A stretch of DNA of 47,787 nucleotides, taken from a virus. Of this stretch, positions 6,853-47,013 are shown piece by piece (the stretch's first letter is position 1; each line of letters starts with the position of its first letter). The stretch lies in IMG/VR virus record IMGVR_UViG_3300035670_000349, positions 1 to 47,787 of that record; one strand, given 5' to 3'. The position numbers and the translations under genes are program-made. The notes beneath the pieces were generated by a model. The model saw only the letters and a list, made by a program, of their open reading frames with translations. It was not told the origin of the DNA and searched no databases.

Positions 6853-7195
6853 GCTCACAGATTTAATCACCGAAGCAGGTAAGGAAAACCGCATCAATTC
6901 AATGCGTTTGGTCGCATTACTTGAAAAGTTAGTTCCAACTTTAAAGGAAGCACAAGAAGATAAGGTAATGAAGTTGACAGCAGAATTATTGGCAGGTATT
7001 ACCAAGGTCAATGAAATGCCATACAACTACAATACAATGTCTCAATGGCATATGACCGAATTAGCAACCGTGGTCATGCCAGCACGTGATTTACGTGAAA
7101 TGTTAAATAGTCTATTGCAAAAACCAACTAAGGGTTTAGATACAACAGTTCTTGAAATGGTTATCAAGTCAATAGACGAATTGTATATCTACTAA
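6845..7195 (+). CDS. Small helical protein with leader MIKLTDLITEA
   Basis: A 116-residue, mostly helical protein. The start at 6845 is supported by AGGGAGAAG just upstream and by the N-terminus MIKLTDLITEAGKE, which closely parallels the T4 internal-protein leader (MKTYQEFIAEA), including an ITE/A cleavage-like site. The body (about 15-110) has heptad-like Leu/Met spacing, e.g. RLVALLEKLVPTLKE, and ends LYIY. It overlaps the upstream gene by 8 bases and precedes the portal gene by 14. Function unknown. A portal-proximal or core protein is possible from position. Confidence 0.65.
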   Translation: MIKLTDLITEAGKENRINSMRLVALLEKLVPTLKEAQEDKVMKLTAELLAGITKVNEMPYNYNTMSQWHMTELATVVMPARDLREMLNSLLQKPTKGLDTTVLEMVIKSIDELYIY

Positions 7196-7209
7196 CAAGT
7201 TGAGGGGTT

Positions 7210-9117: not shown

Positions 9118-9143
9118 AAGTAAGGTCTTAATAATATTCGTTA

Positions 9144-9166
9144 TATTTAATATATGACGGTATAAT
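9144..9166 (+). promoter_or_regulatory. Candidate promoter upstream of 9187 gene
   Basis: After the portal stop a 69-base gap holds TATTTAAT (9144-9151), a variant of the TATTTATA motif seen elsewhere, and TATAATG (9161-9167), a good -10-like box. No matching TTGACA is present 16-18 bases upstream of it, so a sigma70 promoter is only weakly supported. Confidence 0.3.
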
Positions 9167-9186
9167 GTCACCAAAATGGGATGTTT

Positions 9187-10065
9187 ATGAAAGCAAACGT
9201 CAAGCATAACAAAATTCGGAATACGGGCATACTATTTGAACTATTAGTCCGTAAAATTACCTCAGATACATTGGATAATCGTAGTAATGATACTGCGGTC
9301 AAACTAATGAAAGAGTATTTCAATTCTAAAACCGAACTTGGTAAAGAATTGATACTTTATCGTTCGTTTTTCAATGCACAACAACTCAGTGAAACAAAGG
9401 CATTTGAACTTATCAACGTATTAATATCGCAACGTAAAAAGTTAAATGAAGTGGCATTAAATACTCAAAAATATAAGTTAATTCGTGAAATTAAAAACAA
9501 TTATGATTTAAAAGAATTTTTAAATGCCCGCATTCCGTCTTACAAAGTTTATGCTTCTGTATATAAGGTGTTCGATGGTGCAGTGAATGAAATCCAAGAC
9601 TTCAACGAAATTGAAGGAATGGTTGAAGCAAAATTCACCATCGTGGAACATCTAAGTGGTAAAATTATCAGTAAGGAAATTAAGAACGACACTGCACTAT
9701 ATGAAACTGTAAAGGGTCAAGAAGAAGATTTACGTTTATTAACCTATAAGATTTTGATGGAAAAGTTCAATCAAAAGTATGTAGGACTAAATGACCGTCA
9801 AAAAGACCTTCTTCGTGAATATATTTACAATGTATCAAATTCAGCAGCACTTCGTTCATATGCAACAAATATGGCAAAAGAATTGATTTCTGAAATTAAA
9901 ACGAAGTCAGCAAAGTTAAATAATCAAGTAACAAAGATTAAGTTAGCAGAAGTTGTTTCTCAATTGGAAAAAATAAAAACAGTTCAGGTCGTTAAGGAAA
10001 ATCATATGACCGCATTGTTGATTGGCTTGGAAATTACCAAGACATTAGACACTTTAAAGAGTTAA
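9187..10065 (+). CDS. Conserved T4-like head-region protein, unknown function
   Basis: A 292-residue basic, helical protein. Two in-frame ATGs (9181 and 9187) are two codons apart. I prefer 9187, giving MKANVKHNKIRNTGILFELL. The N-terminal NTGILFELLVRKITSDTL signature (about 12-29) is strongly conserved in environmental T4-like phages at this position between portal and prohead protease, yet I know of no established function. The rest alternates charged helices, with SNSAALRSYATNMAKE near the C-terminus. No cofactor motif, Cys cluster or membrane segment is visible. A prohead-core role is plausible from synteny only. Confidence 0.75.
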   Translation: MKANVKHNKIRNTGILFELLVRKITSDTLDNRSNDTAVKLMKEYFNSKTELGKELILYRSFFNAQQLSETKAFELINVLISQRKKLNEVALNTQKYKLIREIKNNYDLKEFLNARIPSYKVYASVYKVFDGAVNEIQDFNEIEGMVEAKFTIVEHLSGKIISKEIKNDTALYETVKGQEEDLRLLTYKILMEKFNQKYVGLNDRQKDLLREYIYNVSNSAALRSYATNMAKELISEIKTKSAKLNNQVTKIKLAEVVSQLEKIKTVQVVKENHMTALLIGLEITKTLDTLKS

Positions 10066-10068
10066 TTT

Positions 10069-10566
10069 ATGGATAATGTACAAAAACTTCGTGAACTTAT
10101 CCGTGAACTTATCAAGAAGGAACTTGATGAAGCAACCACAACGGCAAGTGTTCCTGGATACTTAACTCCATATTCTTTCCGTGGTAATAAAGAAAAGAGT
10201 ATCGCTCGTTCTAAGCATATTGCAACCGCAACTACAGGATTTAAGTTGACTCCTAAAGGTGAAGAAGAAGCAGATAGACCTGCCGATAAAATGGAAATTG
10301 TTAAAAAAGAATTAAGTGAAAACAAGTATTACGAATACAAGAAAGACCCTACAAAGTCACCACATCAAAAAATCGCAGAAGCTATTTCACAACTGAATAG
10401 AAATCTTGAAGAAATTGAACGTGTAATTAAGATGAATTCACGTTTAAAAACAGAATCAGGCATCGCAGGTGAACAATTATGGAAGCGTACCCAAAAGGGA
10501 ATGTTAAAGTTGGAAGCAAAACTTCTTGGTTTAGCAACACGCATCCGTGAAATTCGTGGACAATAA
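10069..10566 (+). CDS. Conserved head-region protein with SVPGYLTPYSF motif
   Basis: A 165-residue hydrophilic protein. It begins with an amphipathic Leu/Arg/Glu helix MDNVQKLRELIRELIKKELD, then DEATTTASVPGYLTPYSFRG (about 20-39). A similar VPGYxTPxAF motif recurs in many T4-like phage proteins next to the prohead protease. LDE/A at 19-22 is a possible maturation site. The C-terminal 60 residues form a basic helical hairpin (LWKRTQKGMLKLEAKLLGLA). It starts 3 bases after the previous stop and ends 1 base before the protease ATG. Possibly a head-core or protease-associated protein. This is inferred. Confidence 0.7.
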   Translation: MDNVQKLRELIRELIKKELDEATTTASVPGYLTPYSFRGNKEKSIARSKHIATATTGFKLTPKGEEEADRPADKMEIVKKELSENKYYEYKKDPTKSPHQKIAEAISQLNRNLEEIERVIKMNSRLKTESGIAGEQLWKRTQKGMLKLEAKLLGLATRIREIRGQ

Positions 10567-10567
10567 T

Positions 10568-11155
10568 ATGCAAACACTACTCGTAGAATATAATGTTATC
10601 TCTTATGATAACGGATTGTTGTTGGAAGCAGCAGACACTTCAAAACCACTTATTTTGAAGGATGTGGTTTTACAACGTGCTGACCACAAGAATCAAAATG
10701 GTCGTGTATATCCAAAAGAAATTTTAGCACGTGAAGCTATGACATACAAAAATAATTTTGTATCACAACGCCGTGCATTAGGTGAACTCGACCATCCAGA
10801 AAGTCCAGTTGTAAACTTAAAGAATGTATGCTGCAACGTAACCGATTTGTGGTTTGAGGGTGCAGACGTTGTTGGTAACATTGAAATTTTATCCACCCCA
10901 TCTGGAAATATTGTTCGTGAACTTATCAAGAACAACATTCGATTGGGTGTATCTTCTCGTGGTATGGGTTCGGTCAAACCAATCGGTGAAAACACCGTAG
11001 AAGTCGGTGATGACTTTGCACTTATTTGTTTTGATATTGTCAGTAACCCAAGTACCCACGGGGCATTTATTAACGAAAACACGGGTGGTAAAATTATCAC
11101 CCCCTATAGTCGTATTGATACATTAATTTACGACTTCTTAGGTGAACTAAAGTAA
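10568..11155 (+). CDS. Prohead core protease (gp21-like, peptidase family S80)
   Basis: Serine protease that matures the prohead by cutting capsid, scaffold and internal proteins after [IL]xE sites. The 195-residue protein has the family layout: NGRVYPKEIL at 44-53, the catalytic His in GELDHPESP (H76), the catalytic Ser in GVSSRGMGS (S129 or S130) and the Asp in FDIVSNPSTHGA (D156). I start at 10568. A longer frame from 10547 overlaps the preceding gene and only adds seven residues. Its own N-terminus contains LLLEA (residues 17-21), a likely self-processing site. It lies upstream of scaffold and major capsid, the usual T4 order 21-22-23 with extra genes inserted. Confidence 0.92.
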   Translation: MQTLLVEYNVISYDNGLLLEAADTSKPLILKDVVLQRADHKNQNGRVYPKEILAREAMTYKNNFVSQRRALGELDHPESPVVNLKNVCCNVTDLWFEGADVVGNIEILSTPSGNIVRELIKNNIRLGVSSRGMGSVKPIGENTVEVGDDFALICFDIVSNPSTHGAFINENTGGKIITPYSRIDTLIYDFLGELK

Positions 11156-11166
11156 AAGGAGTTTTT

Positions 11167-11430
11167 ATGACAACGTTTTTCGGATTAGTAGTAGTATTGG
11201 CAGTAGTAATTTATTTCGTCAATCGTAAGGTAATGGCAGCACCTGCACCATTATTAAAGGCAACCAAGAAGGTTGAAGCAACTGTCGTTAAGGCAGTTGA
11301 TGTCAACGGTGATGGTAAGGTTGACTTTGCAGACGCAGTTGCTGCAGTCAAGACTGTTAAAGAAACTGGTAAGAAGGCTGTTAAGAAAACAACCAAGAAG
11401 ATTACAGGATCAAAGAAAAAAACTAAGTAA
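11167..11430 (+). CDS. Small membrane protein with dockerin/EF-hand-like loop
   Basis: An 87-residue protein with an N-terminal transmembrane segment (residues 3-18, TFFGLVVVLAVVIYFV), a positively charged linker, a single DVNGDGKVDFADAV loop (about 44-57) with the DxNxDGxxDxxD calcium-ligand spacing, and a Lys/Thr-rich tail ending SKKKTK. AAGGAG precedes the start. A membrane anchor plus Ca-loop plus poly-basic tail is unusual among structural genes. It could tether something to the inner membrane during head assembly. Family unknown. Confidence 0.65.
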   Translation: MTTFFGLVVVLAVVIYFVNRKVMAAPAPLLKATKKVEATVVKAVDVNGDGKVDFADAVAAVKTVKETGKKAVKKTTKKITGSKKKTK

Positions 11431-11431
11431 T

Positions 11432-11809
11432 ATGGCACATTTGCGACTCAAAGCTTTACTAAACGAAAATATAACAGATGAATTTGTAAAGTTTGTCGCT
11501 AAAGAGCTACAACTACAATCACTACCTGCGAGTATTAAATTCGTTGGTAGTGATTATTCTAAAGAAAATTTGACATTTGGTACATATAGACCAGATACAG
11601 ATGAAATTGTAATCGTTAAGGGTAACAGACATATCGCTGATGTATTACGTACTTTGGCACACGAAATGGTGCATCACAAGCAACGTATAAGTGGACAAGA
11701 ATTAAACGGTGAAGATGGATCAAGCACCGAAAACGAAGCAAACGCAGTGGCAGGAGAATTGATGCGTAAGTTTCGATATGTAAGACCAGAATTATATTTG
11801 GAGAGATAG
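11432..11809 (+). CDS. Zincin-like metallopeptidase domain protein
   Basis: A 125-residue protein with an HExxH zinc-protease motif, LAHEMVHHKQ (H77, E78, H81), and a downstream ENEANAVAGELMRKF helix whose Glu (E100 or E102) fits the third zinc ligand. This is the core of a minimal zincin (SprT/ImmA-like in size and arrangement). The start at 11432 gives MAHLRLKALLNENITDEF, again a leader-like Leu-rich helix with LNE. A longer overlapping frame from 11273 lies inside the previous gene and is rejected. It may cut a host or head protein, or be a structural relic. Substrate unknown. Confidence 0.75.
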   Translation: MAHLRLKALLNENITDEFVKFVAKELQLQSLPASIKFVGSDYSKENLTFGTYRPDTDEIVIVKGNRHIADVLRTLAHEMVHHKQRISGQELNGEDGSSTENEANAVAGELMRKFRYVRPELYLER

Positions 11810-11810
11810 G

Positions 11811-12293
11811 ATGCCAGCAGTCAGTAAAGCACAACAAAAACTTATGGGTATTGTTCATGCTATCCAAACTGGAAGAGCAAAGGCAACAGATTTTAGTCCA
11901 ACTGCACAAAAGTTGGCAAAAACGATGTCTAAGGGTGATGTGAAAAAATACGCATCAACTCCAATCTCCAAATTACCAAAGAAAAAAGATGAGGTTGCAG
12001 GAGCAGTACCTGCATCGGATATTCCTGTAGCATCTAATGATATGACACCAACAGTATCTAATGACCCATCATATGTGTCATACGATGAAAATTACAGTGA
12101 AAAACAAAACCAAATATTGAGTATTGTAAAGGATAGAAAACCAGCAGAGATCGATGGTGTTATGCTTGATATCTACACAGCTGCATTGTTGACAAAAGTT
12201 TTACATAAGTTGGCACCGGAAAATCGTAAGAAGATGTTAGCACTTCCAACAGAAAAGATGGTGGCAACTGCATACAAGTTAGTTACACGATAA
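11811..12293 (+). CDS. DUF3008-type small protein with C-terminal extension
   Basis: A 160-residue protein. The first about 55 residues, MPAVSKAQQKLMGIVHAIQ followed by an AKTMSKGDVKKYASTP segment and SKLPKK, match the pattern of the DUF3008 family, small basic helical proteins common in phages and bacteria with no established role. Residues about 56-100 are a Pro/Ser/Asp linker. The last 55 residues are a helical domain (IDGVMLDIYTAALLTKVL) not part of DUF3008. Start 1 base after the preceding stop, with AGAGATAGG as Shine-Dalgarno. Position among prohead genes suggests a head protein. Confidence 0.75.
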   Translation: MPAVSKAQQKLMGIVHAIQTGRAKATDFSPTAQKLAKTMSKGDVKKYASTPISKLPKKKDEVAGAVPASDIPVASNDMTPTVSNDPSYVSYDENYSEKQNQILSIVKDRKPAEIDGVMLDIYTAALLTKVLHKLAPENRKKMLALPTEKMVATAYKLVTR

Positions 12294-12297
12294 TATT

Positions 12298-12305
12298 AAG
12301 GAGGT
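12298..12305 (+). promoter_or_regulatory. Strong Shine-Dalgarno before bS21 gene
   Basis: AAGGAGGT ends 3 bases before the ATG at 12309, with GGAGG 4 bases from the start codon. It is among the best anti-SD matches in the window, equalled by the site before 18085, and fixes the start of the bS21 gene. The short spacing is notable for a protein that in bacteria sits next to the anti-SD helix. Confidence 0.75.
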
Positions 12306-12308
12306 TGT

Positions 12309-12527
12309 ATGTACGTTGAAGTACGAGGAGAAAGTCTTGGTGATTTAGATAGAGCACTTCGTCAATTCTCCAAACAGGTTAAGAAAGCAGAAATTGTAAA
12401 TGAAGTAAAGCGCCGTGAATTTTATGTTAAGCGGTCAAAGAAAAAGATACTTAAAAGACAAGAAGCACTTCGTCGTAGAATTAGAGAAGAAAAGAAGGTA
12501 GAGAAGAAAAAGAACTCTGAATGGTAA
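12309..12527 (+). CDS. rpsU: Ribosomal protein bS21 homolog
   Basis: A 72-residue homolog of the small-subunit ribosomal protein bS21, which binds the 30S platform near the anti-Shine-Dalgarno end of 16S rRNA and helps mRNA selection. The family signature is clear: an N-terminal VRGESLGDLDRALRQFSKQ, then EIVNEVKRREFYVKRSKK, then a long Arg/Lys helix with QEALRRRIREEK. Length is close to the usual 58-75. bS21 genes are known in several aquatic and huge phages, where exchange for host bS21 is proposed to bias translation to phage mRNA. Here it is the last gene of the prohead block before a double hairpin, so it is likely expressed with late structural genes. Confidence 0.9.
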   Translation: MYVEVRGESLGDLDRALRQFSKQVKKAEIVNEVKRREFYVKRSKKKILKRQEALRRRIREEKKVEKKKNSEW

Positions 12528-12533
12528 AAAATG

Positions 12534-12590
12534 GTGTTTTTTGTAAAAACACTAATATATATTATATAGATTACACCTCTTTTGGGGTGT
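12534..12590 (+). terminator. Double hairpin / terminator before scaffold gene
   Basis: Two hairpins follow the bS21 gene. GTGTTTTT (12534-12541) pairs perfectly with AAAAACAC (12545-12552) across a 3-base loop. ACACCTC (12573-12579) pairs with GGGGTGT (12584-12590) across TTTT with one G-T pair, followed after CTATGC by a T-rich tract. The second is the better terminator candidate. Confidence 0.6.
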
Positions 12591-12601
12591 CTATGCTTTT
12601 G

Positions 12602-12609
12602 TATTTATA
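12602..12609 (+). promoter_or_regulatory. Candidate late-promoter motif TATTTATA
   Basis: TATTTATA lies 47 bases before the scaffold ATG, just after the double hairpin. It is one of six exact copies found in intergenic DNA at unit boundaries (the others begin at 3669, 15547, 18046, 31535 and 36999). It is the reverse complement of the T4 late -10 box TATAAATA, so assignment as a promoter is inferred from recurrence, not from a direct match. Confidence 0.4.
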
Positions 12610-12656
12610 ACCATATAATAGTTTGAATAACTATTGAAATTAATGAGAGGCACAAT

Positions 12657-13871
12657 ATGGCAGAAATTACGAACGAACTTTTAAAGCAAGCTATCGCAGA
12701 CGCAGATGCTGTACGTGATATGGCAATTGCAAATGCAAAGCTCGCATTAGAAGAAACATTCACACCCCAAATCAAGTCCATGTTAGCAAAGCGTTTACGC
12801 GCTGAAGCAATGGAAACCGCAGAAGGTGCAGAAAAGGCAAAGGAAGAACCATTCCAAGATGGTGAACCAGTAGGTTCATCAGAAATGCCAGCAGATTCAT
12901 CTGACATTGGTGCAGGTGATAACAAGGAACCATCACCAGCAGCATTCGACTCAGCAGAAGATGATATGAGTGGTGAAGGTGAAACCGATTCATCAACCGA
13001 TTGGTATGATGATTGGTCAGAATCAGACTTTGACCTTGATGAAGTAATCAAGGAATTAGAAGAAGATGTAAAGGCACTTTCAGAAGCTGAAGAAGAGGAA
13101 AAGGAAGAAGAACTCGACGAAGCTAAGCACGAAGGTGAAGAAGAAAAGGAAGAAATGAAGGAAGGTATGGAAGCTGAAGAAGAAAAGGAAGAAAAGGCTG
13201 ACGAAGCATATCCTTCAGAAAATCCAGAAGCTGGCGTAGAAAAGCCAGAAATTCCAGCTAAGTCATCAGACATCGGTAAGGCAGAAGCAATGGCAGCTGA
13301 TGTTAATAAGTTTGTAACAGACCCATCAACTCCAAAGCACGAAGGTGAAATGGAAATGGGTGCAGAAAAGGGTCACGAAGCAGGTGAAGGCGAAGAAGAA
13401 CTCGACCTTGAAGCTATCATCCGTGAATTAGAAGCCCAAGATGCTAAGGATATGGAACAAAAGCATCAAATGGCTACTAAGATGGCAGACCTTCAAAAAG
13501 AACTTGCAGAATATCGTAAGGTGGTAGAAGTCCTACGAGGCAAGCTTAACGAAGTAAATCTTCTAAACGCAAAACTCCTTTATACCAACAAGATCTTCCG
13601 TAAGGAAGGTTTGACCAACGAACAAAAGGTCAGTATTCTTGAATCATTTGACCGTGCAGTAAATGTTCGTGAAGTTAAGATGGTATACGCAACATTAGCT
13701 GAAGCTATGACTGTAACAGCTAAGACAGCAAATAAGGGTCGCACCTCGTCAAGTAAGGTTGTAACTGAAGGTTTGGCATCAAAGCCAACCGCAAGTACAG
13801 CACCAAAGAAGGAAATTTTAGAAGAAAATACAGTCGCAAAGCGTCTACAACAACTCGCAGGCATTCTATAA
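12657..13871 (+). CDS. Prohead core scaffolding protein (gp22-like)
   Basis: Internal scaffold around which the capsid assembles, later digested by the gp21-like protease. The 404 residues show the typical scaffold plan: a helical start (MAEITNELLKQAIADADAVR), a very acidic Glu/Ser/Asp middle (about 55-260) and a C-terminal coiled coil (about 277-355) with KLNEVNLLNAKLLYTNKIF and VSILESFDRAVNVREVK, the part most conserved across T4-like scaffolds. Several [LV]xE sites (LSEAEE, LDEAK, LAEAM, VTEG) could be protease cuts. It is longer than T4 gp22 (269 residues) through the acidic insert. It precedes the major capsid gene by 19 bases. Confidence 0.9.
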   Translation: MAEITNELLKQAIADADAVRDMAIANAKLALEETFTPQIKSMLAKRLRAEAMETAEGAEKAKEEPFQDGEPVGSSEMPADSSDIGAGDNKEPSPAAFDSAEDDMSGEGETDSSTDWYDDWSESDFDLDEVIKELEEDVKALSEAEEEEKEEELDEAKHEGEEEKEEMKEGMEAEEEKEEKADEAYPSENPEAGVEKPEIPAKSSDIGKAEAMAADVNKFVTDPSTPKHEGEMEMGAEKGHEAGEGEEELDLEAIIRELEAQDAKDMEQKHQMATKMADLQKELAEYRKVVEVLRGKLNEVNLLNAKLLYTNKIFRKEGLTNEQKVSILESFDRAVNVREVKMVYATLAEAMTVTAKTANKGRTSSSKVVTEGLASKPTASTAPKKEILEENTVAKRLQQLAGIL

Positions 13872-36305: not shown

Positions 36306-36971
36306 ATGAGTTTACAAATGTTTCGTGAATTACAAGAACTGATAGATACAGCAGAGCATGTTGTAATCGCAGTTATCGTTGCAGAAGGTTGTGAAAATTA
36401 TAAAGGAAAGTTTTTGACTGATTTTGAAAATCAAATAAGAAATCAGGCAAATCCAGTTCATTTACACGTAATTTGTTATCGTGAAGAACCAATTATGTTT
36501 CCACGACCAATGACCCAGGCGGTGTATTATTTCGCACCAAAAAATCATACACCACTCTTTTATCGTCAAGGTCAACGAGCAATGGATGCACCAATTGATA
36601 TTGTTACGGCAATCAAGATGATGCAGGGAATGTCTTATGCAGAAGCAGCTTATGGTGAAGAAAAGAAAGAAAGTTACGAACGAACGGCAGCATTAGTCAA
36701 ATCAGAAGATACATCAAATTTTCCTTCATTGTTTCAACAAGCTCGTAATTTTGCAAAAGAAATGTGGCACGCAGGAAAGAACGCAGCAGTGGGATTACCT
36801 GTATTGGTTGACGCAGATATAGCATTTCAACGATTTGAAACGTGTCGTGGATGTGAGTTTTTAACACAAGATAGTTTTCGTTGTGAAAAATGTGGTTGTT
36901 TTATGAAAACCAAGACACAAATCGCAACATCGTCTTGTCCGATTGGAAAATGGTCAGCAGTAACACCCTAA
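36306..36971 (+). CDS. Protein with C-terminal six-Cys zinc module
   Basis: A 221-residue protein. Residues 15-60 (VVIAVIVAEGCENYKGKF, then VHLHVICYREE) suggest an alpha/beta, possibly thioredoxin-like, domain. Residues about 90-165 are helical. The C-terminus holds C180-x2-C183, C193-x2-C196-x-C198 and C211, in the pattern CxxC...CxxCGCFM..K...SCPIGKW. I have seen this Cys module in many phage and bacterial proteins of unknown role, and it probably binds zinc. It stands directly before the collagen/His-repeat gene set, so it may have a role in making or processing those proteins. That is a guess from position. Confidence 0.65.
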   Translation: MSLQMFRELQELIDTAEHVVIAVIVAEGCENYKGKFLTDFENQIRNQANPVHLHVICYREEPIMFPRPMTQAVYYFAPKNHTPLFYRQGQRAMDAPIDIVTAIKMMQGMSYAEAAYGEEKKESYERTAALVKSEDTSNFPSLFQQARNFAKEMWHAGKNAAVGLPVLVDADIAFQRFETCRGCEFLTQDSFRCEKCGCFMKTKTQIATSSCPIGKWSAVTP

Positions 36972-37016: not shown

Positions 37017-37748
37017 ATGTTAAAATTTTTTCCGTTTAGAACATTTACTTCTTCGTTCGCATACACAGGATCAACTGCCGCTACCGCGTCTTTCGTCTTG
37101 TCTGGTATGTCCGCATCGTATTCTATTGCAGGTGGTGGTGCAACAGGTCCGACAGGTGCAACATCAGTAGTACAAGGTGTTACAGGTGTCACGGGTGCAA
37201 CTGGTATAGGACCAACAGGACCAATTGGTGTTACAGGACCAACTGGACCACGTTCTGCAACAGGGCCAACAGGACCAACAGGTATTACTGGTCCTACGGG
37301 AGCAACAGGTGCAACGGGAGCAGCATCTACAGGTCCAACAGGACCAATTGGTGTATCTGGTAGTACAGGACCAACAGGTATACAAGGTGCAACAGGAATT
37401 GTGGGCATTACTGGTGCAACGGGTCCAACGGGACCAAGTGGACCAACAGGACCAACTGGTGTACAGGGTATTGGAGGACCACAAGGTGTTACGGGTGCAA
37501 CAGGTCCACAAGGTAGTACTGGTGTTGCTATCACTGGCATTTCTGGACCAACAGGTGTTACAGGCCCATCTGGTCCACGCGGTCCATCAGGTCCACAAGG
37601 AACAATCGGTGTAACAGGTCCAACTGGTCCAACAGGAGCACAAGGTACGGCATTTACAGGACCAACAGGTGCAACAGGTCCAACGGGTGCTACAGGACCA
37701 GCAGGAGCAGTGGGAGCAACTGGACCAACAGGTGTCAATACACCATAA
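37017..37748 (+). CDS. Collagen-like protein with FFPF N-terminus
   Basis: A 243-residue protein. N-terminus [16 protein letters not shown], then a Ser/Ala/Thr segment (to about 40), then G-x-y triplets to the end ([12 protein letters not shown]) with short interruptions such as TSVVQ and IGPTG. It lacks a globular end. The N-terminus is shared with genes at 37767 and 40515, so it is likely a common docking or assembly tag. GPT-rich repeats without proline-hydroxylation signals are typical of bacterial/phage collagens. Threonines in such repeats are often sugar carriers in bacterial spore collagens. Whether that holds here is unknown. Confidence 0.75.
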
Positions 37749-37766
37749 TAAGAGAGATTATAAGTT

Positions 37767-38888
37767 ATGACGTTTAAGTTTTTTCCGTTTGGAACACCAA
37801 CAACTAGTTCATTTGCACTAAATGTGGTAGGTAGAACCACCACCGCATCTATTGCTATTAACAGTGGGTCTGGGTTCTTAACAGCGTCATTTTCATTAGG
37901 TGGATTTACTGGACCAAGTGGTGTCTCAGGACCAACAGGAGCAACGGGTGCAACAGGTCCAACAGGACCAACTGGTGTATCTGGGTCAACTGGTGTTCTA
38001 GGTACCTCAGGTTCCACAGGACCACAAACATCGGGATCTACAGGACCAACAGGACCATCTGGTATACGTGGTGCAACAGGTCCAACAGGCCCAACAGGTA
38101 TTACAGGTTCTACTGGTGTTATTGGTGTAACTGGACCAACTGGACCACAAGGTATTTCTGGACCAACAGGTGTTACAGGTCCAACTGGACCATTAGGTAG
38201 AACTAGTATAGTAGCAGGTGTTATTGGTGTATCGGGTGTTACAGGACCAACAGGTTCATCTGGTCCAACAGGTCCACAAGGAGCAACAGGACCAACAGGT
38301 GTCGGACCAACGGGAGCAACAGGTCCAACTGGACCATCGGGGTCAACTGGAGCAACTGGACCTGTCGGCCCAACAGGTGCAACAGGAGCAACTGGTCCAC
38401 AAGGTTCAACAGGACCAAATACGTTCGGTATTTCGGGACCAACGGGTGTTACAGGACCAACAGGTGCAGTAGGACCAACTGGACCACAAGGTGCGGCAGG
38501 TCGAGCAGCATTTTTCGTTACTGGTTCATGTAACCAAACACATTCAGATATTACGGTTCCGCATAGTGATATAGCTGCAAGTCACACCAATATTGCGGCT
38601 GCGCACACAGACAACACTACAAATCCGTCACATTCGGATATAGTATCAACCACACCAGCATCACATACAGATAATACTACTCCACATAGTAATATTACAA
38701 TTAACGCAGCACATACGGACAATACCACCAATGCATCGCATTCTGATATTGCACATTCTAATATCACGATAAACGCAGCACATACAGATAATACGTTTGC
38801 ACCACATACAAACGTGTATACTGCACACGCAAATTCATACACACCTGGGCAACATACAAATTCATTTGGTGGTAATCCACCATTCTAA
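37767..38888 (+). CDS. Hybrid collagen-like / His-Asn-Thr repeat protein
   Basis: A 373-residue mosaic. Residues 1-45: [14 protein letters not shown] tag and Ser/Ala segment. About 46-242: collagen triplets. About 243-256: a short junction with [11 protein letters not shown] (one Cys). About 256-350: His/Asn/Thr repeat units of H-[ST]-[DN] type, for example HTDNTTNPS and HSNITINAA. End: [21 protein letters not shown], a C-terminal motif shared with the 41452 gene. It joins the two repeat types found separately in its neighbours, so the cluster is modular. Likely extracellular or virion-surface. Confidence 0.75.
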
Positions 38889-38900
38889 TTAGGATATTAT

Positions 38901-39641
38901 ATGGGACATTCAGATAATTACACTTCACCGGCACATTCCGATACAGCAGCAAGTCACGGAGACAGTCCTGGTGCGCATACGGATAGTACTATTCCTGGAT
39001 CTCACACAAATATTTCTCATGCAAATTTAACAATTAACGCAGCACATACAGATAGTACCACCCCATTTAGTAATATTGCATTTACTAACACTACGATTAA
39101 CGCAGCACATACAAATATTTCTCATACAAATATTTCAGCGGCACACACGGATACTACAATTAATGCATCGCATACTGACACCACTATTAACGCATCACAC
39201 ACAGATAATACTACACCATTTAGTAATATAGCGTTTGTCAATAGTACTATCAATGCATCGCACACTAATATTGCAGCATCACACACGGATAATACAACTG
39301 CAAAAACACACACTGATATTTCACACGGGAATACAAGTCTATCACACAGTGACACCACAATTAACGCATCACATACAGATAATACTACAAACGCAAGTCA
39401 TACGAATATTAGTCATAGTAATATATCTGCAGGACATCTAGATAATACTACCAACCCATCACATGCTGATAGTGTAACATTACATCAAAACGTGGCTTTT
39501 ACTAATACAGCGTTCGGCAACAACTATACACCAGCTCAATGTTCACAATGTGCAACATTTAACACTCCTGGGGAATGTGATGAATTCTGTGATTGTTATC
39601 CATACTGTGGATGTCAAGATGGTGTATGTGTATTCGTATAA
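38901..39641 (+). CDS. His/Asn/Thr repeat protein with 8-Cys tail
   Basis: A 246-residue protein. Residues 1-210 are almost entirely repeat units with H or F in first position, S/T/V in second, D/N in third, and lengths of 5, 7 or 9: HTDTTINAS (9), HTNIAAS (7), HTDNTTP (7), FSNIA (5). The last 35 residues form a separate Cys-rich module with eight cysteines in CSQC...GECDEFCDCYPYCGC...VC spacing, fit for disulfides or metal. TAGGA serves as Shine-Dalgarno. No family recognised. A surface fibre or metal-loaded structural protein is likely. Confidence 0.75.
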   Translation: MGHSDNYTSPAHSDTAASHGDSPGAHTDSTIPGSHTNISHANLTINAAHTDSTTPFSNIAFTNTTINAAHTNISHTNISAAHTDTTINASHTDTTINASHTDNTTPFSNIAFVNSTINASHTNIAASHTDNTTAKTHTDISHGNTSLSHSDTTINASHTDNTTNASHTNISHSNISAGHLDNTTNPSHADSVTLHQNVAFTNTAFGNNYTPAQCSQCATFNTPGECDEFCDCYPYCGCQDGVCVFV

Positions 39642-39668: not shown

Positions 39669-40508
39669 ATGCCAGGTCCACAACACTCAAATACCCCGCA
39701 TACCAACATAGCACACGATGATGTATCCGGTGCACACACGGATGTGACAATTAATGCGTCACATACGGACAATACTACTCCATTTAGTAACATATCGTTT
39801 TCAAATAGTTATATCGGCAATAATCATTCGGACACAACAATTAACTCGTCACACACGAATAGTACCATACCATTTGACAACGTAGCTTTCGTCAATACTA
39901 CTACACCAGGTACACATACAGATACTACTATACCATTTAGCAATAGTTATACTCCGAAAGCACATACCGATATTAGTCACAGTAATATTTCGGCAGCACA
40001 TACCGATACTACAATTAACGCATCACATACCGATACTACAATTAACGCATCGCATACTGATAATACCACACCATTCAATAATATTGCATTCGTTAATACA
40101 ACAATCAATGCATCACATACGGACATATCACACAGTAATATATCTGCAGCGCACACGGACAACACAACAAACGCAGCGCATAATGATATTTCGCATGGTG
40201 ATAGTACGATTCCAACACTCCACACCGATAATTACACAGGTCCATCACATAGTGATAATACAACACCAGCATCGCATAGTGATATAGCATTTAGTAATAT
40301 TACAATTAATGCAGCACACACCAATATTACAATTAATGCAAGTCACAGTGATATTTCGGCAGCACATACTGATATTACGATTAACGCAAGTCATACTAAT
40401 ATTTCAAGTACTACACCAGCAGCACATACTGATAGTACAACACCATTTACCAATAGTACTACCCCACATTCAAATGTTGCGGCAGCCCACAGTGACGCAT
40501 TCCTATAA
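39669..40508 (+). CDS. His/Asn/Thr repeat protein
   Basis: A 279-residue protein made of H/F-[ST]-[DN] repeats from end to end (start MPGPQHSNTPHTNIAHDD; end HSNVAAAHSDAFL). Units include [33 protein letters not shown] and HSNISAA. There is no globular domain, signal peptide or Cys cluster. It is close in composition to the 38901 and 42748 products, with which it likely co-assembles. The start is supported by ACAGGA 9 bases upstream. Codon choice for identical repeats varies, so the amino-acid pattern is under selection, not just DNA slippage. Confidence 0.75.
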   Translation: MPGPQHSNTPHTNIAHDDVSGAHTDVTINASHTDNTTPFSNISFSNSYIGNNHSDTTINSSHTNSTIPFDNVAFVNTTTPGTHTDTTIPFSNSYTPKAHTDISHSNISAAHTDTTINASHTDTTINASHTDNTTPFNNIAFVNTTINASHTDISHSNISAAHTDNTTNAAHNDISHGDSTIPTLHTDNYTGPSHSDNTTPASHSDIAFSNITINAAHTNITINASHSDISAAHTDITINASHTNISSTTPAAHTDSTTPFTNSTTPHSNVAAAHSDAFL

Positions 40509-40514
40509 TAAGAT

Positions 40515-41378
<864 letters not shown>

Positions 41379-41451: not shown

Positions 41452-42726
41452 ATGCCAAAGGCACCTGGTAGTATATGGGTTGATGGAGAAACCTTTAGAT
41501 TTGTTGACGGGTCTGGTAATGAATACTATTACACAGGCACGGCGGGTAGTAGTCCTGTGGGAGCAAAACCTGGGTCAATCTGGGTAGATGGAAATGATTT
41601 CCATTATATTTCTGCTACTGGTGTTGACCGCACCATCGCATACACCGATTTAGGTTCTGTTGCAGGGTCTAAGCCAGGATCAGTTTGGGTAGAAAGTACA
41701 TTCTGGTACTGGATTTCTAGCGCTGGTGTAGAACGTAGAGGACACACTGACGTAACGGCAGCGCATACGGATAATACTACTCCGGCATCACATACTAATA
41801 TTGCATTCGTTAATACCACAATTAACGCAGCACATACGGACAATACCACCCCAGCAGCACATACCGACATCGCAGCAGCTCACACCGATACTACTATCAA
41901 CGCGTCACATACTGACACCACTATTAACGCATCACATACCGACATCGCAGCAGCTCACACCGATACTACTATCAACGCGTCACATACTGATAATACCACA
42001 CCATTCGTAAATACTACAATTAACGCATCACATACGGATAATACCACAAACGCAAGTCATACAGACAATACCACTCCGTTCGTAAATACCACAATTAACG
42101 CATCACATACGGATAATACCACTCCATTTAACAATATTGCGTTCGTTAATACCACAATTAACTCATCACATACAGACAACACCACACCGTTTAATAATAT
42201 TGCGTTCACCAATAGTTACACACCTAATAATCACACGAACAATACCACTCCGTTCAATAATATTGCGTTTACCAATAGTTACACCGGAAATAATCATACG
42301 AACAACTATACACCGCATACTAATATTGGGCATAGTAATATTGGACATAGTAATATTGGATTTACCAACATTGGATTCAGTAATATTGGATTTACCAACA
42401 CAACAATCAACGCATCACATACCAACATAGCACATAGTAATGTCGGTGCGGCACACACCAATATTGGACACACCAATATCGGTGCAGCACATACCAATAT
42501 TGCTCATAGTAACGTTGGATTCAGTAACTCGTATACCCCATTTAGTAATGTTGGATTCAGTAATGTTGGATTCAGTAATATTGGATTTAGTAATATTGGA
42601 TTTTCAAATTCCACAACACCATTTGCAAATTCTACCACACCATTTAGTAATTCATATACAGCGCATGCGGATAATTACTCAGCTGGTTCGCACGGTAATT
42701 CGTTCGGTGGTAACCCACCAACCTAA
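41452..42726 (+). CDS. His/Asn/Thr repeat protein with threefold Trp-rich head
   Basis: A 424-residue protein. The N-terminal head has three degenerate repeats (about 4-25, 38-60 and 73-97): PGSIWVDGETFRFVDGSG, PGSIWVDGNDFHYISATG and PGSVWVESTFWYWISSAG. The rest is repeat array: H-type units first (HTDTTINAS, HTDIAAA), then F-rich 5-residue units (FSNIG, FTNIG, HSNIG), closing with [21 protein letters not shown], the same end motif as the 37767 product. A 58-base exact direct repeat at 75-base spacing lies at 41858-41990. The head may be a beta-propeller-like or small sandwich attachment domain. Confidence 0.75.
   Translation: MPKAPGSIWVDGETFRFVDGSGNEYYYTGTAGSSPVGAKPGSIWVDGNDFHYISATGVDRTIAYTDLGSVAGSKPGSVWVESTFWYWISSAGVERRGHTDVTAAHTDNTTPASHTNIAFVNTTINAAHTDNTTPAAHTDIAAAHTDTTINASHTDTTINASHTDIAAAHTDTTINASHTDNTTPFVNTTINASHTDNTTNASHTDNTTPFVNTTINASHTDNTTPFNNIAFVNTTINSSHTDNTTPFNNIAFTNSYTPNNHTNNTTPFNNIAFTNSYTGNNHTNNYTPHTNIGHSNIGHSNIGFTNIGFSNIGFTNTTINASHTNIAHSNVGAAHTNIGHTNIGAAHTNIAHSNVGFSNSYTPFSNVGFSNVGFSNIGFSNIGFSNSTTPFANSTTPFSNSYTAHADNYSAGSHGNSFGGNPPT
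41858..41990 (+). repeat. 75-bp direct repeat in 41452 gene
   Basis: Copy 1 starts at 41858 and copy 2 at 41933. The first 58 bases are identical and then diverge. It encodes 25 residues, HTDIAAA plus HTDTTINAS twice, i.e. unit lengths 7+9+9. The same 75-base period occurs in the 42748 gene. Confidence 0.85.
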
Positions 42727-42747: not shown

Positions 42748-43734
42748 ATGGGACATACAAATTTCTATAACGCACCTTCACACGGTAATTCTGCTGGTGG
42801 GCACACCAACATCGGTGCAGCGCATACCAATATCGGTGCATCGCATACTAATATCGCGCATAGTAATATCGGTCATAGTAATATTGGACATAGTAATATT
42901 GCTCATAGTAACATTGGGGCAAATCATACTAATATAGGATTTAGTAATGTCGGATTCGGTAATTCTACCACACCATTTAGTAATATTGCATTCGGTAATT
43001 CTACCACACCATTTAGTAACATTGCGTTCAGTAATTCATACACACCAAACAGCCATACTAACATCGCACATAGTAATGTAGGATTTACTAACATCGGATT
43101 TAGTAATATTGCATTCAGTAATATCGGATTTAGTAATATTGCTAAGGCACATACGGACAATACTACGAACGCAAGTCACACTAACATTGGTCACACCAAC
43201 ATTGGTGCAGCTCATACTGACAATACCACGAACGCAAGTCACACCAATATTGGTCATACGAATATTAGTGCAGCACACACCGATACTACCATCAACGCAT
43301 CGCATACTAACATCAGTCACACCAATATTGGTGCAGCACACACGGACACCACGATTAACGCAGCACATACTAATATCGCAGCAGCCCACACCGACACCAC
43401 CATTAACGCAGCACACACGGACACCACGATTAACGCAGCACATACTAATATCGCAGCAGCCCACACCGACACCACCATCAACGCGTCACATACAGACAAC
43501 ACCACACCATTCGTGAACACCACGATTAACGCATCTCACACCGACACCACTATCAACGCAAGTCACACAGATAATACCACTCCATTTGTGAATACCACTA
43601 TTAACGCGGCCCACACAGACACCACTATCAACGCAAGTCATACAAATATCGCACACACAGATACGACGATTAACGCAGCACATACCGACACCACCATTCC
43701 TCACAGCGACCAACCAGTACTAGTTGGTCCATAA
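42748..43734 (+). CDS. His/Asn/Thr repeat protein, Ile/Gly-rich first half
   Basis: A 328-residue protein, all repeat. The first half is dominated by 5- and 7-residue units (HTNIGAA, HSNIG, FSNVG, FGNSTTP, FSNIA), the second half by 9-residue HTDTTINAA/S and 7-residue HTNIAAA units, ending HSDQPVLVGP. A nearly perfect 75-base tandem duplication lies at 43333-43482. The start MGHTNFYNAPSHGNSAGG resembles the start of the 38901 product (MGHSDNYTSPAHSDTAAS). It is the last of the repeat genes, directly before the radical SAM promoter. Confidence 0.75.
   Translation: MGHTNFYNAPSHGNSAGGHTNIGAAHTNIGASHTNIAHSNIGHSNIGHSNIAHSNIGANHTNIGFSNVGFGNSTTPFSNIAFGNSTTPFSNIAFSNSYTPNSHTNIAHSNVGFTNIGFSNIAFSNIGFSNIAKAHTDNTTNASHTNIGHTNIGAAHTDNTTNASHTNIGHTNISAAHTDTTINASHTNISHTNIGAAHTDTTINAAHTNIAAAHTDTTINAAHTDTTINAAHTNIAAAHTDTTINASHTDNTTPFVNTTINASHTDTTINASHTDNTTPFVNTTINAAHTDTTINASHTNIAHTDTTINAAHTDTTIPHSDQPVLVGP
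43333..43482 (+). repeat. Tandem 75-bp duplication in 42748 gene
   Basis: Copies at 43333-43407 and 43408-43482 differ at one base (T to C near the end). They encode two rounds of the same 25-residue repeat (9+7+9 units). The low divergence marks a recent expansion, while other units in the gene are diverged at silent sites. Confidence 0.9.
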
Positions 43735-43741
43735 TTGGGGC

Positions 43742-43770
43742 TTGACAAGTGGTGAGTTGTTATGTATATT
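43742..43770 (+). promoter_or_regulatory. Sigma70-like promoter before radical SAM gene
   Basis: TTGACA (43742-43747), a 17-base spacer, then TATATT (43765-43770): a perfect -35, ideal spacing and a -10 with one mismatch. The ATG follows at 43800 with CGAGG Shine-Dalgarno. A 7-bp GACCAAC/GTTGGTC hairpin (43708-43729) just upstream, within the end of the previous gene, lacks a T-run. It is the only strong host-type promoter I noticed in the window and suggests separate, earlier expression of the enzyme cassette. Confidence 0.75.
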
Positions 43771-43799
43771 ATAAAATGATTTATTAATCACGAGGTTAT

Positions 43800-45113
43800 A
43801 TGACTATTGAATTAGAACCAGTTGGTGTAGTATGTAATTTGAGTTGCCCATATTGTTACGAACATCCTATGCGTGACGCGGGTAATTTCCGTCAAAAGAC
43901 ATACTCCGTAGAGAAAATGTTAGATGGTTTGGCCAAAGAAGGTGGTAATTTTACCCTATTTGGTGGTGAACCATTATTAACTGATATTGACGATTTAGAA
44001 ACTATTTTTAAGTGGGGTTATGAACGCTATGGAATGAACGGCGTTCAAACAAATGGTGTTTTAATCACCGACCGCCACATTGAAATGTTTAAGAAGTATA
44101 ACGTTCACGTTGGTGTGTCCCTCGACGGACCCGATGAAATGAACGATACTCGTTGGGCTGGGTCACTTGAAAAGACCAGAGAAGCCACCCGTAAATCATT
44201 TGAAGCTATTAAAAAGTGTTTAGCAAATAAGCTATCACTTGGATTGATTATTACTATCCACAAGAAGAATGGATTGCCAAAACATCGTGAACGTTTTAAG
44301 GCGTGGATTAAGGAACTTCAATCGTGGGGAGTTGACGGAGCACGACTTCATCCATTAGAAATCGACCATAGTTCAGTCGGTGAAACTTTGGCACTTACAC
44401 CAGAACAAAATATTGAATTCCTCCTTGATATGTGGGAATTTGAAATCACCGAATTGAATGTTCCTGGTAAGCGTTCTTTCCATTTTGATATTTTCCGTGA
44501 TGTAGAAGATATGTTACGAGCAGAAGATAATAACGCTACTTGTACGTTCTTATCATGCGACCCATATACCACGCACGCGGTGCAAGGTATTGACTCACAG
44601 GGTAATAAGGCAAATTGTGGTCGTGGAAACAAGGAAGGCATTAACTGGATTAAGGCGGATGTTGACGGATTTGAACGTCAGATGGCATTGTATAATACAC
44701 CACAGGAACACGGTGGTTGTCAAGGATGTCGTTTCTTCATTATGTGTAAATCACATTGTCCTGGTACTGGTGCTGATATGGATTGGAGAAATCGCACAGA
44801 CACTTGCATGAACTGGAAAGTAGCGTTTGGTATTTATGAAAAGATGATGGTACAGAAAGGTGAAGTACCATTGTCACTCAGCCCTGACTTGAAGAAATAT
44901 GAAGATATTTTAATGTATGGATATAGTCGTGGTGTAGAACTTCGATTAAAGCATATTAAGCAATACTTAAATGGTAATTTTAATATAGAAGCATTTATAG
45001 ATAGTTATTTAACTGCACAGAAGTTTGGTGGACTTATGCCACACGCAGATCATACTGACGAAACTGGTAAGTATGCGATGGAGTACAAAGAGAAACACGG
45101 TTTTTTACCTTAA
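43800..45113 (+). CDS. Radical SAM/SPASM protein- or peptide-modifying enzyme
   Basis: A 437-residue radical S-adenosylmethionine enzyme. The SAM-cluster motif CNLSCPYC gives C12, C16 and C19 (CxxxCxxC), and GGEP is at 55-58. The C-terminal SPASM domain shows the CX2CX5CX3C signature exactly (C307, C310, C316, C320), with C253 or C248, C273 and C336 completing two auxiliary 4Fe-4S sites. This class (anSME, PqqE, sactionine and RiPP maturases) modifies peptides or protein side chains. Residues 415-425, HADHTDETGKY, lie beyond the SPASM domain and recur twice in the next gene. It lies behind its own sigma70-like promoter and immediately after the repeat proteins. The substrate is unknown. Confidence 0.9.
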   Translation: MTIELEPVGVVCNLSCPYCYEHPMRDAGNFRQKTYSVEKMLDGLAKEGGNFTLFGGEPLLTDIDDLETIFKWGYERYGMNGVQTNGVLITDRHIEMFKKYNVHVGVSLDGPDEMNDTRWAGSLEKTREATRKSFEAIKKCLANKLSLGLIITIHKKNGLPKHRERFKAWIKELQSWGVDGARLHPLEIDHSSVGETLALTPEQNIEFLLDMWEFEITELNVPGKRSFHFDIFRDVEDMLRAEDNNATCTFLSCDPYTTHAVQGIDSQGNKANCGRGNKEGINWIKADVDGFERQMALYNTPQEHGGCQGCRFFIMCKSHCPGTGADMDWRNRTDTCMNWKVAFGIYEKMMVQKGEVPLSLSPDLKKYEDILMYGYSRGVELRLKHIKQYLNGNFNIEAFIDSYLTAQKFGGLMPHADHTDETGKYAMEYKEKHGFLP

Positions 45114-45131
45114 TTAAAGAGGATATGTAAA

Positions 45132-45509
45132 ATGATTAGTTTGCACGCAGACCACGTAGACGCTTCAGGAGCGTATGGTCAAAAATTCGCAGTAGTAGAA
45201 GAATTGGTTAATAAGGGATTGTTAACAGAAATTCCAGAAGAGTTTCGTGATACTGGAGCTCCTGTACAAGAAAACGTTCCTGTTGTAACCACTTCACAAA
45301 CAGTAGTTGCTGATGAGTTTGATATGACGAACGGACATGCTGACCACGTTGACGAAACTGGTCGTTATGCACGCGCATACGAAGAAAAGTTCGGTGCAGG
45401 ATCACTTAGTGAATCTTCAAACTCACAGCAAGAAGAGCAAGCTGGTAGTTCGTGGAAGTCTTTCTTACAAAAGATTATCGCTGAAGAAAAGAGTAAGTTG
45501 AAGGTTTAA
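45132..45509 (+). CDS. Small HADH-motif protein, possible SPASM substrate or partner
   Basis: A 125-residue acidic protein. HADHVDASGAY (residues 5-15) and HADHVDETGRYARAYEEKFG (69-88) both match the C-terminal tail of the preceding radical SAM enzyme (HADHTDETGKYAMEYKEKHG). The segment between is a Val/Pro/Thr linker. The C-terminus SSWKSFLQKIIAEEKSKLKV is a helix. There is no Cys, so it is not a sactipeptide-type precursor. It could be a maturase partner, a substrate carrying a recognition tag, or a protein built by exchange of a small domain. AGAGG lies 11 bases before the start, and it is co-transcribed with the enzyme. Confidence 0.7.
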   Translation: MISLHADHVDASGAYGQKFAVVEELVNKGLLTEIPEEFRDTGAPVQENVPVVTTSQTVVADEFDMTNGHADHVDETGRYARAYEEKFGAGSLSESSNSQQEEQAGSSWKSFLQKIIAEEKSKLKV

Positions 45510-45528
45510 TCTAAACACAGAAGGGGTT

Positions 45529-47013
45529 ATGCAAAGAATAAAGCACGTCCTACCAGATTGGACTCGTGTGCAGTGGACTAGTATTGAAAATAGAAATAAA
45601 TACGAACCTATCATCAATTCTATTAATTCTGCATGGAAGCATATTGAACGTATGTCGGTGGTGCATGATATTAGGCCATCCTCGTTGGATATCGTATCAC
45701 CTAAAGAACTTGTACAACTTACGGAAGAATATAAAAAGTACGGAGTACTTGTAGTTCCTATTGCCAAAGAAGGTAAATCGGGATTATATTCGTCTACCAG
45801 TAAAACATATAATGGTAATGGTGATTATAATGTTCGTGTCGTATTTACGAAATCAGAACGTTTAGCTGATGAGTGGTTCAATATCTGGCAAGCAGAACCA
45901 AAGATTCGTGACCGTGAAGCTGGTCGTTTATTGGGATATCCGACTTGTTGTACCAATCACTTTATGAAGTATTGGGTTGAGCAAGGATTTGTGGATTCCA
46001 CATGGACGATGGCAGCTGATAGTATGGAACTTAATGACGATGACGAAACACATCGTACAATTCACATCAAGGCAGATACTCCACCAGAAGCTAATATTAT
46101 GTGGAGATGGCAAGGTGTTCGTTTAGTTTCACATCTTCCGTGTTCATTCGATTGTAAGGCAACCGAAGAACTTGGTATGAAGATGGCAGAGTTGGGTCGT
46201 AAACTTGGATTTGAAACTGAGGTGAAGTGGATATATGAACTTCTCTCGTGGCCTGTTGAATGGTCTGCTTTACACGGCATCGCTGAAATTCGTACCCCGA
46301 TTAATAAAATATCTTCTCGTACCGACATGACTCCGTGGAAATATGTGGTACAGAAGCATAGTCACGAATATCCAGAAGATGGTATGTCGGGTATTACGTA
46401 TCCATATAATCAAAAGAAAATTAAGGTAAAACCAGTTACAAAGACGATTTCGTTCGCAAAATCCCTTGAAGATACTTCTGTATGGGAAGAGAACGGATTT
46501 AGTAATAAGGAAGCAATGGATCACTTCCATCAAGTCATTCTTGACGCAATCGGGGACACCAAGTATATTCCTGGTGGTAATGTCCTCGACCTCGGTTGTG
46601 GTAATGGTGTCTTGTTAGGTCGTGTTGTTGGTGATAGATTTGACCTTGTTCCGCATGGTGTAGAAATGGATCGTCAACGTTGTATGTCCGCAGCAACAAC
46701 TATTCATTGGGGAGTCTTTACGATGGGTAGTATTTTCGACCTCAACACGTGGAAGGAAGATATGTACAGCTTGGTACTCCTGATGCCAGGTAGACTTCTC
46801 GAAACCACACGTGCAACAGCAGAACAAGTACGTAAGCAACTTTATGAAAAGACAGACTTACTCCTTATCAACTTGACCTGTGATTGGACACAACAATACG
46901 GTTCAATTGAGAATATTATGAAGGTTACTGGTCTTGACCAAGAGTGGGAATCTGCGGGTAAGTTAATTCATCGTCAAGATGATATGGCACAACTCTTTAA
47001 GCGAAAGGTATAA
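45529..47013 (+). CDS. CC-motif domain fused to class I SAM methyltransferase
   Basis: A 494-residue two-domain protein. Residues about 50-270 contain AGRLLGYPTCCTNHFMKYW (C140, C141) and a later HLPCSFDCKAT (C205, C209), the LGYPxCC pattern of the DUF483-like family, possibly a metal or cluster site. Residues about 325-490 are a class I methyltransferase: motif I NVLDLGCGNG (351-360), acidic E379 in VEMD and a downstream GSIFDL. The GGGGTTATG-type start overlaps nothing, and it follows the HADH gene by 19 bases. The product is most likely a second tailoring enzyme in the same cassette. The target (protein, peptide or nucleic acid) cannot be deduced. Confidence 0.8.
   Translation: MQRIKHVLPDWTRVQWTSIENRNKYEPIINSINSAWKHIERMSVVHDIRPSSLDIVSPKELVQLTEEYKKYGVLVVPIAKEGKSGLYSSTSKTYNGNGDYNVRVVFTKSERLADEWFNIWQAEPKIRDREAGRLLGYPTCCTNHFMKYWVEQGFVDSTWTMAADSMELNDDDETHRTIHIKADTPPEANIMWRWQGVRLVSHLPCSFDCKATEELGMKMAELGRKLGFETEVKWIYELLSWPVEWSALHGIAEIRTPINKISSRTDMTPWKYVVQKHSHEYPEDGMSGITYPYNQKKIKVKPVTKTISFAKSLEDTSVWEENGFSNKEAMDHFHQVILDAIGDTKYIPGGNVLDLGCGNGVLLGRVVGDRFDLVPHGVEMDRQRCMSAATTIHWGVFTMGSIFDLNTWKEDMYSLVLLMPGRLLETTRATAEQVRKQLYEKTDLLLINLTCDWTQQYGSIENIMKVTGLDQEWESAGKLIHRQDDMAQLFKRKV

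Follow-up and report, generated by a model that had tools for sequence, protein, structure and literature searches.

The stretch of viral DNA considered here, which we call the window, is the whole of the IMG/VR record IMGVR_UViG_3300035670_000349 (47,787 bases). Late in its structural region lies a cassette whose first gene codes for a radical S-adenosylmethionine (SAM) enzyme with a SPASM domain and whose third gene codes for a DUF483 domain fused to a methyltransferase. We propose that the cassette belongs to a protein-modification module, in which the radical SAM enzyme and the DUF483 protein would modify the H-x-[D/N] and, in the window, also the F-x-[N/D] units of neighbouring and presumably tail-associated repeat proteins, most likely by forming cyclophanes; as a whole, we consider this explanation probable. 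That the enzyme acts on the H/F-x-[D/N] repeats is very likely; as to the reaction, we lean towards cyclophane chemistry. The ring of a His (or Phe) residue at position i would be joined to the beta carbon of the Asp or Asn at i+2, which would give a three-residue cyclophane with the loss of two hydrogens per motif. It is plausible, albeit tentative, that phage tail-associated fibres with tens to hundreds of cyclophane staples, made by a radical SAM and DUF483 module with or without a methyltransferase, occur in many phages (including hot-spring isolates) and occasionally on bacterial chromosomes. With dozens of staples each, chains that are rich in Ser, Thr, Gly and Ala and otherwise flexible could become stiff fibres that resist proteases, an idea that we hold more loosely still.

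The PHROGs matches of the record include terminase, portal, major head, head-tail adaptor and tail sheath proteins, and its source is a myovirus. Collagen-like genes and five genes for H-x-[DN] repeat proteins, all on the + strand, precede the cassette. The gene at 37767..38888 codes for a collagen-like protein whose final ~123 residues are H-x-[DN] repeats. The four others code for candidate substrates: the H/F-x-[DN] repeat proteins encoded at 38901..39641 (30 motifs, and a Cys-rich C-terminus), 39669..40508 (37 motifs) and 42748..43734 (48 motifs), and the repeat protein encoded at 41452..42726 (51 motifs), which starts with a triple PGSxWV(D/E) domain common to Cumys_13 and phiMa_29. Asp or Asn occupies position +2 of 14/14 His in the 37767 product, 23/23 in the 38901 product, 28/28 in the 39669 product, 27/28 in the 41452 product and 35/35 in the 42748 product, while shuffling gives a mean of 3.7–13.5 motifs per protein. 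Phe obeys the same rule in 13/13 cases in the 42748 product, 9/9 in the 39669 product and 21/25 in a further count that takes in a folded N-terminal domain, the residue at +2 being nearly always Asn (13/13, 9/9 and 20/25, respectively); Tyr does not obey it in the repeat proteins of the window. The codon spellings of the motifs vary (15 HTN are written in 8 spellings, for example), which points to selection on the protein and not only to DNA slippage.

The cassette lies directly 3' of these genes and consists of the radical SAM/SPASM enzyme (43800..45113, + strand, 437 residues), a protein of 125 residues (45132..45509, + strand) and the DUF483-methyltransferase fusion (45529-47013, 494 residues). 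An earlier note, made from the letters of this DNA, had described it as a SPASM enzyme with CxxxCxxC and CX2CX5CX3C signatures, a small partner sharing the C-terminal motif of the enzyme and a two-domain Cys/methyltransferase protein, placed directly after repeat genes. This description holds: both signatures are present, the small protein is similar to the enzyme tail, the third protein is a putative DUF483 domain followed by a Rossmann methyltransferase, and the upstream repeats are real, as judged from motif counts against shuffles. The note was also probably right to see targets in the repeats; the dense Asn, Thr and His side chains that it had in mind are not the unit as such, which is [H or F]-x-[D/N].

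The motif is just as strict outside the window. Asp or Asn is found at +2 of 2155 of the 2201 His (98%) in 69 nonredundant repeat proteins, against 5–32% at other offsets; since these proteins were selected for at least 70% of their His in the motif, the height of the signal, not its offset, is partly so by construction. Ser takes this position in 7/2201 cases, so that these are not His-Xaa-Ser repeats. The gaps between motifs are irregular (3–9 residues and more, with peaks at 4, 5, 7 and 9), which suggests independent three-residue units rather than a regular fold. Most repeat regions have no Cys, and the formation of thioethers was therefore rejected.

Across unrelated phages and bacteria, the link between the enzyme and its putative substrate is strong by comparative evidence, which comprises the motif statistics, the co-occurrence of the genes and a search from the motif alone. 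In scans based on an alignment, 67 viral and 7 close cellular loci were obtained, beyond which similarity falls sharply; a single-sequence scan of bacterial genomes returned no family member, while the alignment-based scan did find them. With a fixed definition of a repeat open reading frame (at least 6 H-x-[DN], comprising at least 70% of the His), such a frame is present in 65/77 family loci and in 0/73 loci of other radical SAM enzymes. After dereplication at 80% identity, repeat proteins accompany the enzyme in 40/44 clusters against 0/73 controls (Fisher p 4e-27), the controls being bacterial and so not matched for phage origin. This is the neighbourhood survey that the earlier note had called for, with H-[ST]-[DN] repeat proteins in mind, and its outcome strongly favours the association. 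The repeat genes are usually directly upstream of the module and sometimes on its other side; a repeat gene overlaps the start of the enzyme gene in 22 loci and is within 100 bp of it in 27.

The four exceptions among the 44 clusters (L054, L057, L055 and L188) are of several kinds. In Fulvivirga (L054), the protein encoded directly upstream has the tail HLKHIKAPHIKHIKAPHIKHVKLPHVK, where H-x-K accounts for 7/7. In Frankia (L057), a large protein encoded directly upstream has seven H-x-D at its C-terminus, and so has a large upstream protein in an actinobacterium that was found independently (L396). One contig (L055) is cut off. In L188, the sequence examined contains no repeat protein, and the enzyme itself has an HxD tail. 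Among Acidobacteria, what is encoded upstream of the enzyme are small peptides that resemble precursors of peptides, for example MPHIDAHIPHDDVKPHADTTAHSDTPHADTPHADG... in L051. The family is rare in cellular genomes: it was detected in 6 of 1289, five seeds included, the new one being an actinobacterium with an upstream HxD tail. The Chengkuizengella locus (L056) also codes, upstream of its repeat genes (7164-8599), for two related proteins with WHID-type motifs, perhaps oxygenases, for which no profile match was obtained.

The reverse search, in which viral contigs were scanned for two H-x-D spacings and the enzyme was not used, leads to the same association. It returned 90 loci with repeat open reading frames; the enzyme is nearby in 62 and elsewhere on the contig in 8 more, and the remaining 20 comprise six simple-sequence artefacts and 14 genuine repeat proteins. 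With the artefacts removed, about 70 of the 84 cases have the enzyme. The motif itself is uncommon in viral DNA, where only 85 stretches in 2.9 million contigs show one particular spacing of four motifs.

The product of 43800..45113 matches the radical SAM family of Pfam (PF04055, E 4.4e-15). As in triceptide enzymes, a CxxxCxxC motif (C12/C16/C19) is combined with the Cys residues of SPASM auxiliary clusters, the SPASM stretch reading C307-x2-C310-x5-C316-x3-C320. C12/C16/C19 and all eight SPASM Cys (248, 253, 273, 307, 310, 316, 320 and 336) are invariant across 34 relatives, so that two auxiliary clusters are expected. The AlphaFold model (mean pLDDT 88.5) has its top TM-score against the PDB in Foldseek with ChlB (9gmc, 0.61), anSME giving 0.54–0.58; PMC12636437 cites ChlB as a radical SAM enzyme that makes multiple cyclophanes. 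The neighbouring genes code for an aromatic-X2-X3 motif (H/F-x-[DN]), like the substrates of triceptide enzymes. In the characterised triceptide enzymes, the ring of residue i (Trp, Phe, Tyr or His) is joined to the beta carbon of residue i+2 (Asn, Asp, Arg, Ser or Ala), the known pairs being Phe-Asn, Trp-Asn/Asp, Tyr-Asp, His-Ala and His-Arg (PMC11002830). We thus propose that the enzyme is a cyclophane synthase.

Several observations weigh against this proposal. The cyclophane reaction is reasoned from sequence, fold and analogy. By Foldseek E-value, it is anSME that ranks first for the enzyme model in the PDB. The nearest NCBIfam profiles are anSME, AmcB, DynA and YhhB, every match being far under its cut-off, with anSME scoring as high as the cyclophane families; the enzyme is under the cut-offs of AmcB, YhhB, GrrM, FxsB and XyeB. 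A tree that includes anSME, FxsB-type, CefB and PapB-like enzymes sets the family apart as a clade with a long stem, outside the FxsB-type cyclophane enzymes, and phylogeny alone therefore does not tell the reaction. Known substrates are short peptides with few motifs, and tens of actions on one large protein are less common. The repeat proteins are taken to be in virions from gene position alone. Finally, the 14 or so genuine repeat proteins without a detected radical SAM gene are mostly on short contigs, but related proteins with collagen and H-x-D parts occur in L215, L244 and L266 (78, 64 and 36 kb), where the record contains no radical SAM gene; it may be that a few repeat proteins do without the enzyme or have it encoded elsewhere.

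A different radical reaction could take place on the same H-x-D/N motifs: epimerisation of Asp/Asn, beta-hydroxylation, desaturation or a dynobactin-like cross-link between a His nitrogen and carbon, possibly with methylation by the fused methyltransferase. All the evidence from co-occurrence and motifs applies equally here, one of the best NCBIfam matches is DynA, and the methyltransferase domain is often present. We nevertheless find this rather unlikely. The replacement of His by Phe suits a carbon–carbon bond to the ring better than chemistry at the His nitrogen, the epimerisation of single residues would not require an aromatic residue at i to be paired so strictly with Asp, Asn or Lys at i+2, and many members have no methyltransferase.

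The motifs could also be metal-binding repeats, like the His-x-His of phage tail spikes and fibres, the radical SAM/DUF483 pair having another role in assembly. Both His and Asp bind metals well, T4-type fibres are known to contain iron/His sites, and four Cys of DUF483 are conserved. On the contrary, Phe-x-Asn replaces His-x-Asp in the lineage of the window, where all or most Phe follow the rule, and His-x-Lys replaces it in L054; these substitutions argue against metal binding and led us to reject it. The irregular spacing is a further difficulty, and metal binding leaves the tight linkage to a radical SAM enzyme unexplained. We regard it as quite improbable.

Cyclophane formation also has to be compared with what has been proposed for the nearest phage relatives. 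In phage records, tblastn detects close, near-full-length homologs of the enzyme only in the Thermus phages phiLo, phiMa and Cumys; in all three, a DUF483 gene is its neighbour. The gene directly upstream in Cumys and phiMa codes for a protein of H-x-D repeats (54/54 and 53/53 His), with an N-terminal domain homologous to the one in the 41452 product of the window; phiLo has three H-x-D repeat proteins, of 58–104 motifs each, a few kb from the enzyme. The Cumys paper described in 2024 a module of a radical SAM gene, a DUF483 gene and a third gene in phages, prophages and cyanobacteria, for which DNA modification was proposed (PMC11437467). The third gene is the one that codes for the H-x-D repeat protein, and the passages of that paper on the module do not mention these repeats. 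The earlier note knew of no phage structural region described with such a cassette, which needs correction: the module is not unique to this phage and had been noticed in those phages.

Were the module to modify phage DNA, its nearness to repeat genes would be fortuitous. The Cumys paper reports cyanobacterial homologs near deazapurine DNA-modification genes, and states that the Thermus phages themselves have none (PMC11437467). Repeat genes are found with the module in 40/44 clusters and the enzyme itself often has the repeat motif. SPASM enzymes act mainly on peptides. With the weaker association on its side, DNA modification was rejected as very improbable. The enzyme could be an ordinary anaerobic sulfatase maturase (anSME, Cys/Ser to formylglycine) that is there by chance, but this reading can practically be dismissed: anSME is its best sequence match in the PDB and NCBIfam, but the score against TIGR03942 is 72.7 bits for a cut-off of 349, Gly replaces the Asp that follows the third auxiliary Cys of anSME in the alignment, Cys is scarce in or absent from the repeats, and the real anSMEs of the control set are never beside H-x-[DN] repeats.

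Several known systems resemble the one that we propose. In triceptide systems (XncB, OscB/GrrM, MscB, YxdB, HaaB and YhhB; ChlB), a SPASM enzyme is likewise encoded beside a substrate with repeated aromatic-X-X3 motifs, X3 being often Asn or Asp; the top TM-score of ChlB and the presence of an aKG-HExxH hydroxylase beside one member are further likenesses. By contrast, most of the putative substrates here are large structural proteins of phages and bear tens of motifs, where triceptide systems have short precursor peptides; the partner is DUF483, the enzymes form their own clade far under curated cut-offs, and the reaction is a proposed one. The Pfam search found no NHLP or Nif11 leader in the 41452 and 42748 products, which do not look like proteusin-type precursors.

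The nearest known idea is the His-Xaa-Ser (HXS) system, HxsA-HxsB-HxsC (Haft and Basu, as cited in PMC9062424), in which, from what is said there, His-x-residue repeats are tied to radical SAM enzymes. Its families do not match here: X3 is Asp or Asn, DUF483 replaces the HXS partners, the setting is that of phages, and the enzyme is a distant match of HxsB (E 3.1e-11 at best, for a cut-off of 370 bits), HxsC not being among the NCBIfam matches listed for it. Four loci (L165, L172, L175 and L023) have two family enzymes, in tandem or nearby, which recalls the HXS enzyme pairs. In the TvgAB poly-cyclopropylglycine system (PMC9062424), a radical SAM enzyme modifies every unit of a repetitive chain, as proposed here; TvgAB acts on the Val of TVGG repeats, and both the enzyme family and the motif are different. 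The module of Cumys and phiMa (PMC11437467) belongs to the same family as that of the window: the enzymes are 44–45% identical, the DUF483 proteins ~31%, and the upstream repeat protein has a homologous N-terminal domain. Beyond this, the window has the 125-residue HADH protein, F-x-N motifs and a methyltransferase domain.

The DUF483 domain (45529..46398, + strand; PF04467) scores 24.5 bits (E 2.9e-5) against a gathering score of 25, and relatives score 26.5 and 31.7. It carries a GYPxCC motif and a later C..C, and its residues C140, C141, C205 and C209 are nearly invariant, which suggests a metal site. Nearly every family enzyme has this domain as a partner, the two being fused in L051, L055, L057 and apparently L396; the domain may therefore be part of the reaction or of the handling of the substrate. 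A Foldseek search with the model of the fusion protein gave only methyltransferases among the matches listed, which assign no fold to DUF483, and Pfam DUF483 members in archaeal genomes gave no usable gene context.

The methyltransferase domain (46399..47013, + strand), recognised by Pfam and Foldseek, has a Rossmann fold and the SAM-binding motif VLDLGCGNG. It is absent from the Thermus phages, L023/L168, L056 and L052; being optional, it could bring a second modification, and methylation is not the core reaction. In Fulvivirga (locus 6841-12867), an alpha-ketoglutarate-dependent (aKG-HExxH) peptide beta-hydroxylase (TIGR04267, above cut-off) is encoded between the enzyme and DUF483; one known relative hydroxylates the Asp and His of a preinstalled cyclophane.

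The enzyme ends with a tail that contains HADHTDETG (45042..45110, + strand). HxD motifs are found in the C-terminal tail of 53/73 family members, with 250 motifs observed against 39 in shuffles. The 125-residue protein resembles this tail (phmmer ~1e-5), has two HADHVD(E/A)(T/S)G motifs and is confined to close relatives of the window; it is a free-standing relative of the enzyme tail. Both may be substrate mimics, or docking or auto-modified segments; docking, auto-modification and feedback are all candidate roles.

In the open-access literature, we found no report that ties radical SAM enzymes to phage repeat, tail or fibre-type proteins in this way; Campylobacter phages with 11–12 radical SAM genes have been described without such a link. 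What appears to be new is hence the link between the radical SAM module and the H-x-D/N repeat proteins, the module itself having been noted in Thermus phages. If our proposal is correct, radical SAM peptide stapling reaches beyond small peptides to large structural proteins of phages, DUF483 gains a function, and a module once guessed to modify DNA is explained. Such modules would also be a source of enzymes that act many times along one chain, and their products a genetically encoded, covalently stapled structural material. Three Thermus phages that carry the module have been isolated, which makes the proposal open to direct tests.

Regarding expression, the cassette is preceded by the sigma70-like promoter TTGACA-17-TATATT (43742..43770, + strand), already seen in the earlier note, which is the best site of its stretch (11/12 consensus). 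Sites of this kind are not commoner there than in shuffles. The -35 element is kept in 8/8 aligned relatives and the -10 element in 6/8, while the 17-base spacer diverges; the promoter is therefore probably real. The genes 46979 and 47223, 3' of the cassette, overlap, and the operon probably continues into them. In the segment 46979-47787, the second gene (~630 residues in relatives) begins with an ExoX-like C-terminal motif and has the same place in close relatives.

Upstream, collagen-like GPTG proteins (37017-38888 and 40515-41378) alternate with the repeat genes, and the 37767 product joins a collagen-like part to H-x-[DN] repeats. The Cys-rich end of the 38901-39641 product (CSQCATFNTPGECDEFCDCYPYCGCQDGVCV) has 8 Cys in ~30 residues, and the C-terminal segment of the collagen-like 40515 product likewise bears Cys; these ends could possibly be disulfide tips. 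The product of 36306-36971, which adjoins the collagen-like genes, has a C-terminal Cys-rich match to DUF6171.

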